IMG/VR virus record: IMGVR_UViG_3300006921_000117
Span: 1-26,721 of that record
Direction: 5' to 3' (one strand)
DNA from: a virus
Length of the DNA stretch: 26,721 nucleotides
Shown: piece by piece, positions 2,156 to 7,898 of the stretch
Layout of the letters: every line of letters starts with the position of its first letter
How positions within the stretch are numbered: position 1 is the first letter of the stretch
Program-made: the position numbers and the translations under genes
Notes under the pieces: model-generated
The model's input: the letters and a program-made list of their open reading frames with translations, nothing else
Told to the model about the DNA's origin: nothing
Databases searched by the model: none

Positions 2156-2543
2156 ACAACTAACAGAAGATCAACAGAAGTTTCTTGATCTAAAAGATAT
2201 AACTGAAGATCGTCAGCTAAACAAAATTAAAAAAAACAGATTGAGATTGCAAAAACGTAAACAATATGGAAAAAAAGTATTAAAAAGATTTAAAACTATG
2301 AAGGGGTGTGCATCTTGTGGTTATAAAAGTCATCATGCCGCCTTAGAGTTTAACCATAGAGTTCCTGATGATAAAGTGTTAACTATAAGCACTGAGGCTA
2401 TGCTAATTAGTTGTCGTAAAACATCCCTTAGTAAGATAAAATTTAAAAGAGAATTAGCAAAGTGTGATGTATTGTGCGCTATTTGTCATCGTATTGTAAC
2501 GTATGAAAAAAAACATCAAGTTAGTAGGAGGTACAAATGCTAA
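2148..2543 (+). CDS. HNH endonuclease (131 aa)
   Basis: A very basic N-terminal half (RLRLQKRKQYGKK) leads into an HNH fold. CASCGY (two Cys of a zinc knuckle) is followed by AALEFNHRVPDDK with the central Asn-His, then CDVLCAICHRIVTYE with the second Cys pair and the final His. This is the compact 'C-x2-C ... EFxHR ... C-x2-CH' type found in many phage HNH proteins. It is a DNA-cleaving enzyme needing a divalent metal. Its start overlaps the upstream membrane gene and its end overlaps the integrase start. It may be a free-standing homing endonuclease or help degrade host DNA or recombine phage DNA; the sequence does not decide. Confidence 0.85.
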   Translation: MARQLTEDQQKFLDLKDITEDRQLNKIKKNRLRLQKRKQYGKKVLKRFKTMKGCASCGYKSHHAALEFNHRVPDDKVLTISTEAMLISCRKTSLSKIKFKRELAKCDVLCAICHRIVTYEKKHQVSRRYKC

Positions 2544-3451
2544 AAGAAAATAATACATTAAATAATTACATAGAATTATATCGAAAAACAAATACGTTTA
2601 AAACTAAAAAAGGTAATACGCAAAAAGATTATATCTATCAACAAGATCACTCCCGAAAGACTGTTGTGTGTGGTAAGCCTTTAGGGGAACACAAGATACA
2701 TAAGATAGGTAGCAAACAGCTTAATGATGCCTACGAAAAATGGCTTATCACAGGTACTCGTACTGCTAACTCACGCAAGAATTCTCTTAACCTAGTATTT
2801 CAATATTGTATGCAACAAGAGGTAATAGATTCTAACCCAATGCGATTGGTTTCGAGTAAACTTAACACAGGTAGAGATACTATGTGGACAAAAGAGCAAT
2901 GCCACTTATTCTTAGATACAGCCTACTCTGAGTACAAGTGGCGAAGCATGGGTGTTCTAGCACAGATTTGTTCAGAGCTTGCTCAACGAGTAGGGGATGT
3001 AAGAAAACTACGTTTTGATCAAGTTAATTTTGATAAGTGTAGGATTGATATAGAGCAAAGTAAAACTGGAGCTAAAGTATACCTTCACGTTGAAGATAAT
3101 TTGCTTTCAGTTCTTAAACAACAAAAAGATACCTTTGGTTTTCAACCTTATGTATGCCCTCGTCCATTACCTATATTTGCTAGGGGTCAAGACTATACAC
3201 ATTATCGTAAAGGTGAGGTCAGTAAGTTTGCTAATCAGATAAAGGAAACAGCAAAATTACCTAAACATTTACAGATACGGGATTTTCGTAGGACTTGGGT
3301 TACCCGTGCGATCAAAGCAGGGGCAGATGCCGTATCAATCATGCAAGTCACAGGACATAAACACATTTCATCTTTAAATGCATATACAGTCAATACTCCC
3401 GAAGGTGCTAAAACTGTTTTAGATAAGGTTAATTCTTACGATGGCGAGTAG
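2537..3451 (+). CDS. int: Tyrosine recombinase / phage integrase (304 aa)
   Basis: It catalyses site-specific recombination between phage and host attachment sites. The C-terminal catalytic half carries R151 (ELAQRVGDVRKLRF), K176 (SKTG), R251 (RDFRRTW), H274 (VTGHKH) and the nucleophile Y283 (NAYTV), nine residues after H274 as in lambda Int. The usual box II His (H-x-x-R) is R248 here. Residues 1-100 form the core-binding region, with no long arm-binding domain. GGAGG at 2527-2531 gives a strong start, and the gene overlaps the primase. Its presence implies lysogenic potential, but I found no tRNA-like attachment site nearby and no clear CI/Cro-type repressor. Confidence 0.9.
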   Translation: MLKENNTLNNYIELYRKTNTFKTKKGNTQKDYIYQQDHSRKTVVCGKPLGEHKIHKIGSKQLNDAYEKWLITGTRTANSRKNSLNLVFQYCMQQEVIDSNPMRLVSSKLNTGRDTMWTKEQCHLFLDTAYSEYKWRSMGVLAQICSELAQRVGDVRKLRFDQVNFDKCRIDIEQSKTGAKVYLHVEDNLLSVLKQQKDTFGFQPYVCPRPLPIFARGQDYTHYRKGEVSKFANQIKETAKLPKHLQIRDFRRTWVTRAIKAGADAVSIMQVTGHKHISSLNAYTVNTPEGAKTVLDKVNSYDGE

Positions 3452-4251: not shown

Positions 4252-4488
4252 ATGAACAGGATACTATCTGTTACAGTTACAGGAAAACCTCCAGACAAGT
4301 TTGATGCGTGTGTAGGTTTAGTACAGATAGGTAGATGGGGCGCAGTTAAAGAGTGTTGGAACACAGGTAAGTCTAAGCCACTAAGATGGTACTACTACCC
4401 TATTCCTATGCGTTTCTTTAGTTGGGATAGAAATGGAGCTTTTTTGGGCAGGAGAAAAAGACAATATGACGGAATACAATTTAATTAA
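4252..4488 (+). CDS. Hypothetical basic protein between primase and helicase (78 aa)
   Basis: This is a short, basic, Trp-rich protein (RWGAVKECWNTG, LRWYYYPIPMRFFSWDR). It starts four bases after the primase stop and overlaps the helicase start by 23 bases. There is no clear ribosome binding site, so translation may depend on ribosomes leaving the primase. There is no domain I recognise. Its fixed place between primase and helicase suggests a replication accessory role, for example a helicase loader or primase cofactor, but this is position-based inference only. Confidence 0.55.
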   Translation: MNRILSVTVTGKPPDKFDACVGLVQIGRWGAVKECWNTGKSKPLRWYYYPIPMRFFSWDRNGAFLGRRKRQYDGIQFN

Positions 4489-5689
4489 AACTTTAATATC
4501 GGACAAGGAATTTTATAATTCGCATCAAGGAATACTATGTCCCGAAAAACTATTTACTAAAAACGTCAGAAGAGTCAAACATACTCTAGATGAAGCCGTA
4601 CAAACATATGATACCTGTTCTTTAGCTGATGTAGAAGCACTGTTTTATAGTTCAAACAAAACTATGACTACAGCTAACAAGAAACTTTTCTATGACATAT
4701 TTAGAAAAATAGAAAGTAGTTCAGTATTAAACAAAGAAGTAGCTGAAGATGTTATGTCTAAAATGTTTAGGCATTGTGTCGGGGAAGAGGTAGCTAACTG
4801 TGGTTTTAACTTAGTAAATGGCACAGTAGATAGTCTTGAGCCCTTACGAAAAATTATGGAAGACTATCAAGATGATTTTAAACCTAACTTAAAAGTGGAA
4901 TTTGAGGACATGAGTATAAGTACTTTACTAAAATCTAATGAAACACAGACACAATGGAAATTTAACATACCTACCCTGAGACGCAATGTAGAGGGCTGTA
5001 GTGGGGGTCACTTCGTTATTGTCGGTGCGAGGCCAAACACAGGAAAGACTAGCTTCCACGCCTCTGTAGTGGCTTCTCCTAACGGCTTTGCATCACAGGG
5101 TGCGAAGTGTATGGTTTTATGTAACGAAGAAGCTGCCCATCGGGTGGGTGCAAGATACCTGTCGGCTGCTACAACCATGTCTTTAGATGAGATAAAAGAG
5201 AACAGTGCTAAGGCATCAATGCGCTATGATAAGATAAATAAAAACATACAGATTAAAGATTCTACAGGCAAAGATTTGTCTTGGGTTGAGGCTGTAGTTA
5301 AATCTCATAGACCTGACATATTAGTGCTAGATATGGGAGATAAATTTGCACCCAGGACATCAGATAAGTCAGATGTTTACTTAAGAGATGCAGCAATCCA
5401 TGCCAGGAACATATCTAAGGAGTATGATTGTGTTGTGTTTTGGCTATCGCAATTGAGTGCTGAGGCTGAAGGACGCAAGAAACCTGATCAATCTATGCTT
5501 GAGGGTTCAAAGACTGGTAAGGCGGCTGAGGCTGATCTAATTATATTAATAGGAAAAGATCCTGTGATGGAAGGTAATGAAATGAATGATACAATACGAC
5601 ATTTAAATATAGCTAAGAATAAATTAACGGGTTGGCAGGGAGTTATTACTTGTAATCTTCAGGGCGATATAGCGCAGTATACAGCATGA
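4466..5689 (+). CDS. DnaB-type replicative DNA helicase (407 aa)
   Basis: It unwinds the fork as a RecA-fold hexamer. The Walker A loop is GARPNTGKTS (residues 187-196; K194 binds phosphate) and Walker B is ILVLDMGD (285-292; D289). WLSQLSAEAEGRKKPDQSMLEGS (326-348) and AEADLIILIGKD (355-366) match DnaB motifs H3/H4 and the arginine-finger region. Residues 1-110 form a helical N-terminal domain. The frame is open from 4433, but the ATG at 4466 has GGAG at 4451-4454 and gives MTEYNLIKTLIS, a normal DnaB-like beginning. The stop overlaps the next start (ATGA). Confidence 0.9.
   Translation: MTEYNLIKTLISDKEFYNSHQGILCPEKLFTKNVRRVKHTLDEAVQTYDTCSLADVEALFYSSNKTMTTANKKLFYDIFRKIESSSVLNKEVAEDVMSKMFRHCVGEEVANCGFNLVNGTVDSLEPLRKIMEDYQDDFKPNLKVEFEDMSISTLLKSNETQTQWKFNIPTLRRNVEGCSGGHFVIVGARPNTGKTSFHASVVASPNGFASQGAKCMVLCNEEAAHRVGARYLSAATTMSLDEIKENSAKASMRYDKINKNIQIKDSTGKDLSWVEAVVKSHRPDILVLDMGDKFAPRTSDKSDVYLRDAAIHARNISKEYDCVVFWLSQLSAEAEGRKKPDQSMLEGSKTGKAAEADLIILIGKDPVMEGNEMNDTIRHLNIAKNKLTGWQGVITCNLQGDIAQYTA
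4607..4620. repeat. Third, partial copy of the left-end repeat inside the helicase gene
   Basis: The 14 bases TATGATACCTGTTC match exactly the middle of the 26-base repeats at 21-46 and 68-93. Here they encode part of helicase residues 48-52 (Tyr-Asp-Thr-Cys-Ser). Such a match is unlikely, though not impossible, by chance in a window of this size. It could be a secondary protein-binding site or coincidence. Confidence 0.5.
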
Positions 5690-5847
5690 GATTTTTTAAA
5701 AACGAAGATGAAGTTTACTGTTTTGTTTGTAAGGGGAGAGGACTTATATATGAAGCTGAGTCTTTTCCATCAGATCCAGATAATGTTAGTGTTAATGCTG
5801 AGACATGTTACAAGTGTCTTGGTGCAGGATATGTAAAGAAGAGATGA
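5686..5847 (+). CDS. Free-standing DnaJ-type zinc-finger protein (53 aa)
   Basis: This small gene fills the gap between helicase and polymerase, overlapping both by four bases (ATGA at each end). It encodes two DnaJ zinc-finger repeats: CFVCKGRG (C12, C15, G17, G19) and CYKCLGAG (C41, C44, G46, G48), with 25 residues between the pairs. The four cysteines can bind one zinc, as one of the two zinc sites in the Cys-rich domain of DnaJ. There is no J domain. The polymerase directly downstream carries the same kind of finger inside its own chain. The gene may supply a replication cofactor, chaperone-like or DNA-binding, working with the polymerase; that is inference. Confidence 0.75.
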   Translation: MRFFKNEDEVYCFVCKGRGLIYEAESFPSDPDNVSVNAETCYKCLGAGYVKKR

Positions 5848-7898
5848 GAATAGTACTTGATGTAGAGAACACAGTTACCAAGAGAGATGGTAAAACATTA
5901 CTTGACCCTTTTGAGGAGACAAACTTTTTAGTACAGGTTGGAACTAAGAATGTAGATGCGCCAGAGCAACGCAACATATTTACATTTGAACATGTAGAGT
6001 ACAATGACCGTTGTGGTGACAATAGTAGACTTCTCCAAAGCATACTAGAGAAGACAACTTTATTGATTATGCATAACGCTCAACATGATTTAATGTGGCT
6101 TTGGTCTACAGGCTTTAAATATGACGGAGAGATTTATGACACTATGCTTGCTGAGTATTTGTTGCAGCGAGGACAAAAACAACCCCTTAGTCTACAGGCA
6201 TGTGCTGAACGTAGAAAATTAAACTTTCAAAAAGACGATACCCTCAAACAATATTTTAAAGAAGGATACAACACCAATGAAATTCCCCTTAAAGAACTTA
6301 CACATTATCTTGGCTGCGACATTGATACTACTGCCGAGTTGTTCCTTGCTACTCTTGCCGAAGGATTCTCCAAAAGCGAAGCAAACGGAATGGATCGAAT
6401 TCGAGACATTACCTTCAGAGTCTGTAGAGCCCTTACCCGAATGTATATGCGAGGGTTCAGGGTGGATAGACGAGCCCTTCAAGGAGTAAGAGAAGAGTTC
6501 GAGAAAGAAAAGATAGCTATTGAAAATAGGTTAGCCATACAGATACGAGAACTAATGGGTGACACGCCTATAAATTTAAATAGTCCAGAACAAATATCCC
6601 AGGTTATCTATAGTAGAGCAGTGATAGATAAAAAAGAATGGGTAGACATAATTAATTTTACTAAGAATAAAAAAGAGTTTGAAGAGGCTATCAGGACCAA
6701 CAGTAGGATAATAAAAAGAACCGTAGCATTTAGTTGTCCTAAATGTAATGGGGAAGGTAGTCACTACAAGATAAAGAAAGATGGTTCTAACTTTAAGAAT
6801 CCAAGTAAATGTTCCGACTGTTTATCTAGAGGATATCAACTTAAAGATACTCAAAAGATTGCTGGGCTAATGTTTAAACCTCCTAAAAAAGAATGGGTTA
6901 GTAACAATGGTTTTAGTACGAGCAAAGGAAACCTAGATATACTTATGGCTACAGCTAAGACAAACAACCACACGACTGCTCTTCAATTCTTAACTGATAT
7001 TCAGAGGTTGTCTGCTGTATCAACTTATCTAAGTTCTTTTGTGGATGGTATTGGAATTTATACTAAAGAGACAGGGTTCCTGCACGTTGGTTTAACACAA
7101 CACATTACTGCAACAGGAAGATTTAGTGGTCGTAATCCTAACATGCAGAACATGCCTCGTGGTGGTACATTTCCTGTTAAACGTGTATTTGTATCTCGCT
7201 GGAAGGGCGGTCACATATTGGAGGCTGACTTCGCACAACTTGAGTTTCGTGTAGCTGCATATTTATCTCAAGATAAAACTGCTATGGAAGAGATAGATAC
7301 AGGTTTTGATGTTCACTCATACACAGCTAAAGTAATAAGTGATGCAGGGCAACCTACAACTAGACAGGTGGCTAAGGGACATACTTTTGCTCCTCTTTTC
7401 GGGGCGAGTGGTTTTGGTAGAAGCGATGCGGAGTTTAGATATTACAAACACTTTAACCAAAAGTATCATGGTATTGCTGCTTGGCATAAGAAGTTAGGAG
7501 AAGAAGCTTTAAGATACAATAAGATTGCAACACCCTCTGGCAGACAGTTTGCATTTCCAGATGTTGAACGTAAGATGAATGGTCAGCCAACTCACTTTAC
7601 TAAGATAAAGAATTTCCCGGTACAAAGCTTTGCTACAGGAGATATTGTACCCGTTGTACTATTGGAGCTCGATAAAAGATTAGAGCTACTACAAACATCT
7701 ATTGTTAACTCAGTACATGATTCAGTTGTTTTAGATGTACACCCTCACGAGAAAGAATATGTACTACAAATCATAGCAGATTTAAATAAAGATTTGGATC
7801 AGATAATAGAAGAAGCATTCGATATAAAAATGAATGTTCCTATGTTACTTGAAGCAAAAATTGGCCCTAATTGGCTTGACTTAGAGGACGTTATATAG
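5844..7898 (+). CDS. Family A DNA polymerase with inserted DnaJ-like zinc finger (684 aa)
   Basis: This is the replicative polymerase with proofreading. The exonuclease domain has D6/E8 (LDVENT), N78/D82 (HNAQHD) and Y155/D159 (YLGCD). Residues 298-330 hold CPKCNGEG and CSDCLSRG, a DnaJ-like zinc finger between exonuclease and polymerase domains, a trait described for HMO-2011-like phages. Motif A is DFAQLE (D462, E467); motif B has R507, K511 and F515, the position called 762 in E. coli Pol I; F519 replaces the usual Tyr. Motif C is HDS (625-627), where most relatives have HDE. The start at 5844 (MRIVLDVEN) is chosen because it overlaps the upstream stop; the earlier ATG at 5805 lies within the zinc-finger gene. 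Confidence 0.93.
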   Translation: MRIVLDVENTVTKRDGKTLLDPFEETNFLVQVGTKNVDAPEQRNIFTFEHVEYNDRCGDNSRLLQSILEKTTLLIMHNAQHDLMWLWSTGFKYDGEIYDTMLAEYLLQRGQKQPLSLQACAERRKLNFQKDDTLKQYFKEGYNTNEIPLKELTHYLGCDIDTTAELFLATLAEGFSKSEANGMDRIRDITFRVCRALTRMYMRGFRVDRRALQGVREEFEKEKIAIENRLAIQIRELMGDTPINLNSPEQISQVIYSRAVIDKKEWVDIINFTKNKKEFEEAIRTNSRIIKRTVAFSCPKCNGEGSHYKIKKDGSNFKNPSKCSDCLSRGYQLKDTQKIAGLMFKPPKKEWVSNNGFSTSKGNLDILMATAKTNNHTTALQFLTDIQRLSAVSTYLSSFVDGIGIYTKETGFLHVGLTQHITATGRFSGRNPNMQNMPRGGTFPVKRVFVSRWKGGHILEADFAQLEFRVAAYLSQDKTAMEEIDTGFDVHSYTAKVISDAGQPTTRQVAKGHTFAPLFGASGFGRSDAEFRYYKHFNQKYHGIAAWHKKLGEEALRYNKIATPSGRQFAFPDVERKMNGQPTHFTKIKNFPVQSFATGDIVPVVLLELDKRLELLQTSIVNSVHDSVVLDVHPHEKEYVLQIIADLNKDLDQIIEEAFDIKMNVPMLLEAKIGPNWLDLEDVI

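Follow-up and report, generated by a model that had tools for sequence, protein, structure and literature searches.

A conserved but accessory zinc-finger gene beside the DNA polymerase gene in one clade of HMO-2011-type marine phages

Background

Wedged between the helicase and DNA polymerase genes of an uncultured marine phage, known from the IMG/VR virus record IMGVR_UViG_3300006921_000117, lies a reading frame of 53 residues whose product is little more than a DnaJ-type zinc finger, and the polymerase next to it carries another such finger of its own. The locus therefore raises a double question. Firstly, is so short a frame a gene at all and, secondly, what might its product do beside a polymerase that already contains a similar motif? 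The window referred to below is the whole stretch of DNA that was analysed (26,721 bases). Its relevant features are as follows.

2537..3451, plus strand: tyrosine integrase gene, directly downstream of the second site used for the finger gene in relatives; that site is unoccupied in the window
4433..5689, plus strand: DnaB-like helicase gene, immediate upstream neighbour of the small gene, with an ATGA overlap
5686..5847, plus strand: free-standing zinc-finger gene, 53 aa, CFVCKGRG-x21-CYKCLGAG, cysteines C12, C15, C41 and C44; based on homologues and selection
5844..7898, plus strand: Family A DNA polymerase gene, HMO-2011 type, 684 aa, with an ATGA overlap with the small gene; AF2 model of Pol I fold
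6630..6908, plus strand: insertion in the polymerase thumb (residues ~263-355, equivalent to Pol I ~597-611); based on secondary structure and on alignment by MAFFT to E. coli Pol I and T7 gp5
6729..6839, plus strand: DnaJ-type finger within the thumb insertion, residues 296-332, cysteines C298, C301, C323 and C326, basic; based on motif, PF00684 and charge

Results

The small reading frame is a gene

The protein read from positions 5686-5847 is MRFFKNEDEVYCFVCKGRGLIYEAESFPSDPDNVSVNAETCYKCLGAGYVKKR. Its four cysteines, the 21 residues separating the two CxxCxGxG motifs and the four-base overlap of its stop codon with the polymerase start (ATGA, with the polymerase ATG at 5844) had all been described in an earlier, sequence-only reading of this DNA, and all are borne out. 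Absent from that reading was a second overlap of the same kind, in which the ATG of the small frame shares four bases, again ATGA, with the stop of the helicase gene.

When the window was randomised 300 times by a first-order Markov model, no randomised window (0/300) contained an ORF of 25-200 aa with the pattern C..C.G.G-x(8-40)-C..C. Because a tblastn search of phage records with the 53-residue protein gave chance-level matches only (best E ~1), we turned to IMG/VR contigs for homologues, and about 30 of these contain one. All four cysteines are kept in 21/21 aligned members, and they belong to eleven positions that are invariant in this alignment. Close pairs have a pN/pS of about 0.2 (mostly 0.15-0.25), the family means overall being 0.67 for pS and 0.20 for pN, and differences fall on codon positions 1, 2 and 3 at 0.25, 0.17 and 0.45, with an excess at the third. 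Absence of the pattern from random windows, together with purifying selection in related contigs, means that the small frame did not arise by chance; it is a real gene under selective conservation. The view of it as a chance ORF or decaying remnant, for which a relative with a stop codon inside the finger frame directly after the first CxxC could be quoted (L108:3820-3981, remaining frame intact), is contradicted by these selection data, by the conserved cysteines and overlaps and by the random windows, and deserves practically no credence. The stop in L108 is either a sequencing error or a recent loss.

A shortened finger of 48 aa (L119:4958-5104, also in L120-L123) ends shortly past the fourth cysteine. 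It has lost the second GxG but retains the four cysteines, an indication that the property being maintained is metal ligation. The AF2 model of the small protein was not confident (pLDDT 45.7). A profile scan of genome contigs with the small-finger alignment yielded no confirmed relative, and around the gene, promoters and terminators were predicted no more often than in shuffled sequence. In the open-access literature we found no paper on a free-standing finger gene in HMO-2011-type phages. A conserved family of small proteins is thus now defined, with its range and its positions in the genome.

The gene is optional and occupies two sites

It had been supposed that the small frame might always precede polA. 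We searched 11 complete cultured HMO-2011-type genomes over their whole length and found the gene in none of them (0/11); the only weak matches, in HMO-2011 and CRP-738, fall inside the long reading frame of the polymerase itself. It is likewise missing from all loci whose polymerase is less than 70% identical to that of the window (0/165). Above this threshold (71-98% identity), every contig with enough sequence contains at least one copy, and a 98/100 branch of the polymerase tree parts the finger-less rows on one side from the finger-bearing rows on the other. The supposition thus fails for all cultured HMO-2011-type genomes examined and for the sister clade, and even within its own clade the gene can lie 3.3 kb off. 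The small finger gene is optional, stands outside the HMO-2011-type core and belongs to one clade only.

Within this clade, copies occur at the helicase/polymerase junction (slot A) or, some 3.3 kb further upstream, in front of the integrase gene (slot B). Slot A is filled, and slot B visible and empty, in the window, L097, L098, L109, L119, L120, L122 and L123. Slot B is filled in L103, L105, L106, L111 and L124-L126, where helicase and polymerase genes adjoin directly; in finger-less relatives, too, the helicase gene often abuts or overlaps the polymerase gene. The contig of L012 likewise has its finger copy upstream. In L013, L018 and L020 slot A is empty and slot B is not covered, so that they are uninformative. 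We considered the two slots to be mutually exclusive and dropped this idea, since contig G044 (IMGVR_UViG_3300030105_000417) has both of them filled (L112:493-645 and L118:2445-2609), besides the polymerase finger. The polymerases of L118, from this contig, and of L103, with slot B only, are identical and their finger sites differ; the arrangement of the finger gene therefore changes fast.

Several variants of the locus were seen. Slot B copies are mostly preceded, with a small overlap, by a short helical-looking ORF of 36-50 aa (L105:188-298, L111:1290-1409, L124:3467-3619). In the contig of L012 a comparable ORF is present but separate from the finger (L132:995-1105), and the finger itself makes up the C-terminal portion of a longer ORF (117 aa, L132:263-616), the N-terminal portion of which looks helical. 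About 365 bases lie between finger gene and polymerase gene at L115:2058-2423. Further, a 44-aa relative of the finger adjoins a helicase-like ORF (L128:5995-6129) in a phage whose polymerase looks, by eye, C-family; this type of finger is thus not confined to the HMO-2011-type group.

The polymerase finger sits at the tip of the thumb

The polymerase (PF00476 at 7.9e-48, PF01612 at 2.9e-7) is 66% identical to that of CRP-603 and 56% identical to that of HMO-2011, and it has the features by which the HMO-2011 type is recognized, i.e. Family A, a 3´-5´ exonuclease and a partial DnaJ domain with two CXXCXGXG motifs. Its AF2 model (59 sequences, mean pLDDT 90.4) has the Pol I fold, with Z ~33 to Bacillus Pol I. 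The four finger cysteines lie where they had been reported, but the second motif, taken then for a complete one, actually reads CSDCLSRG and misses its first glycine, as it does in many HMO-2011-type polymerases. Every full-length polymerase that we collected (203 polymerase loci) carries the finger, with or without the free gene. The earlier proposal that the small protein could replace the inserted finger does not agree with this universality.

The DnaJ-like insertion has usually been placed between the exonuclease and polymerase domains (PMC9038755, PMC6918029). In our alignment to E. coli Pol I it falls between NLNSPEQISQVIYS and GFSTSKGNLD, i.e. at the thumb tip (Pol I ~597-611), the exact borders of the gap resting on sequence alignment in a variable region. 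For an insertion already known, this location is a modest new point. T7 gp5, also a phage polymerase of family A, has its thioredoxin-binding domain inserted in the thumb as well. However, the T7 insertion precedes FNPSS and has no such finger, whereas that of the phage follows the corresponding NLNSP (NLNSPEQ), one helix later. We had considered that the finger might occupy exactly the thioredoxin-binding position of T7, and dropped this since the alignment puts it after NLNSPEQ. Deletion of the thumb tip of Klenow polymerase (residues 590-613) reduces both its binding to DNA and its processivity, which makes a DNA-gripping role of the basic finger plausible. We regard the polymerase finger, which is basic and common to the whole group, as an element in its own right. 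Its probable role is to grip the DNA product, and the placement at the thumb tip makes this directly testable.

The two fingers share a motif and differ in charge

Both fingers, earlier recognized as DnaJ-type, are similar to motifs 2-3 in the cysteine-rich domain of DnaJ. They align to positions 15-56 of PF00684 with E-values of 2.6e-6 (polymerase finger) and 6.7e-5 (small ORF), neither of which reaches the curated cut-off. Mean net charge is -4.7 for the free fingers and +4.5 for the polymerase fingers; exceptions to the acidity of the former are the window's own copy (0) and that of L124 (+2). The small protein has the same motif as the partial DnaJ domain of the polymerase. The latter is, however, basic, fused to the thumb and universal, whereas the former occurs free, tends to be acidic and is restricted to one clade.

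Discussion

The small gene is real but accessory, and free-standing partial DnaJ fingers are of a known kind. We propose, with a probability of roughly one half, that it is an optional member of an early replication operon and encodes a zinc-held, mostly acidic adaptor or inhibitor that binds another protein, in the manner of anti-TRAP. Judging from the motif, the four cysteines would coordinate a single zinc and so form a "half DnaJ" finger. An adaptor or inhibitor is favoured because most family members are acidic, and for such a family protein binding seems likelier than DNA binding or than duplicating the polymerase finger. According to the ATGA overlaps, translation of the slot A copy would be coupled to that of helicase and polymerase, and coupling at this junction makes a target in early replication or host takeover likely.

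The closest precedent in size and build is anti-TRAP (RtpA/AT) of Bacillus (PDB 3lcz), a zinc protein of 53 residues which exerts its effect by attaching to another protein (PMC2896485). Like the small protein, it is free-standing and has two CxxCxGxG motifs, which bind zinc in anti-TRAP and presumably do so in the phage protein. The NCBIfam model of anti-TRAP RtpA (NF058604) is matched by 19/21 family members, the best E-value of 3.2e-4 being below the cut-off (19.8 bits against 65), so that the phage proteins fall outside this family. There are also structural differences. The linker between the motifs has about 6 residues in anti-TRAP and 21 in the small protein, and anti-TRAP continues into C-terminal helical regions (PMC2896485), whereas the phage chain stops soon past its second motif. 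Further, anti-TRAP binds TRAP as a zinc-dependent trimer or dodecamer, and no TRAP target is known for the phage. The matches of the small family to anti-TRAP, DnaJ and Q-like families go no further than the motif. This counts against an adaptor, as does the low confidence of the AF2 model, and so do two further observations. Most copies found adjoin the polymerase start, a position for which an adaptor aimed at some other target would have no need, and acidity is not universal, as the window's own copy and that of L124 illustrate.

Alternatively, the small protein could be a phage-encoded polymerase partner, its finger docking on the basic thumb-tip finger or elsewhere on the thumb and altering processivity as thioredoxin does in T7. 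The slot A copy adjoins the polymerase gene and is coupled with it, the charges of free and polymerase fingers are mostly opposite, and the polymerase finger lies in the very subdomain where T7 thioredoxin binds. Still, we consider such a partnership possible at best and rather unlikely. Most phages that have this type of polymerase lack the gene, the slot B copy is not adjacent to the polymerase, and the insertion site differs from that of T7. Moreover, when we looked for polymerase changes specific to the finger-bearing clade, just five fixed differences between the clades emerged, none of them clustered; one, a conservative substitution at residue 297, is the sole such change in the thumb insertion and falls in its finger. 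The polymerase thus shows no sign of co-adaptation, and the processivity role suggested in the sequence-only reading gained no positive evidence. Pairing of the small protein with the polymerase finger is possible, is not favoured and is in part contradicted. Its most explicit version, in which the free finger serves as a processivity or specificity factor, an acidic finger set on the basic thumb-tip finger as a clamp by way of translational coupling, strikes us as distinctly improbable; if true, this finger-on-finger clamp would be the zinc counterpart of the T7-thioredoxin pair.

A transcription regulator of Q-like or other type, whose finger would contact nucleic acid or RNA polymerase like the finger of lambda Q, is also unlikely. 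Lambda Q contains CRDCHGTG and CGRCKGVG at similar spacing, and the Q-family profiles PHROG 127 (E 0.018) and PHROG 6060 (E 0.0053) match 14/21 and 13/21 family members, weakly and over the finger only. An hhalign comparison with lambda Q, however, reaches only 22.7, the 53 residues leave no other Q domain, and the family is mostly acidic. Partial DnaJ fingers have already been described in phage proteins, namely in gp45 of Acinetobacter phage Loki, where two CXXCXGXG motifs occur together with a Q match (PMC5313236), and in a Riggi protein (PMC3853051). By description they resemble the small family in having the two motifs and differ from it in that these are C-terminal in a protein.

It is more doubtful still that the small gene originated as a duplicate of the polymerase finger, as the term "duplicated module" had implied. 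Both fingers represent DnaJ motifs 2-3, and hhalign relates the two families with a probability of 95.7. This value is, however, of the same order as those obtained against motifs 2-3 of E. coli DnaJ (90.2 for the small family, 96.0 for the polymerase finger). Once cysteine and glycine positions are masked, the probability between the two families falls to 0.1, so that alignment of the fingers, proposed as a check of common ancestry, leaves no similarity beyond the Cys/Gly motif; the mostly opposite charges agree with this.

A DnaK co-chaperone or recruiter, which the likeness to zinc site 2 of DnaJ might suggest and which had been offered as one possible role, is very improbable, since the window has no J-domain (no PF00226 match at E 10, with 12/14 control genomes matched) and the protein has only half of the cysteine-rich domain. 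It aligns to DnaJ motifs 2-3, but has two motifs instead of four and scores 20.6 bits against the PF00684 gathering score of 32.7, and so does not belong to DnaJ.

Other small genes in the neighbourhood

Two further types of small ORF with cysteine pairs were observed. The window contains, just before the integrase gene, a 131-aa ORF (2148-2543) with CASCGY...HHAALEFNHR...CAICH, which looks like a small, putative HNH-type nuclease. Some finger-less relatives have, upstream of the helicase gene, a different small zinc-ribbon-like ORF that ends with a C..C...C..C segment and CLEEE (L001:3896-4072, L003:3784-3918, L029:563-793, L035:2121-2351, L045:382-558, L088:620-931).
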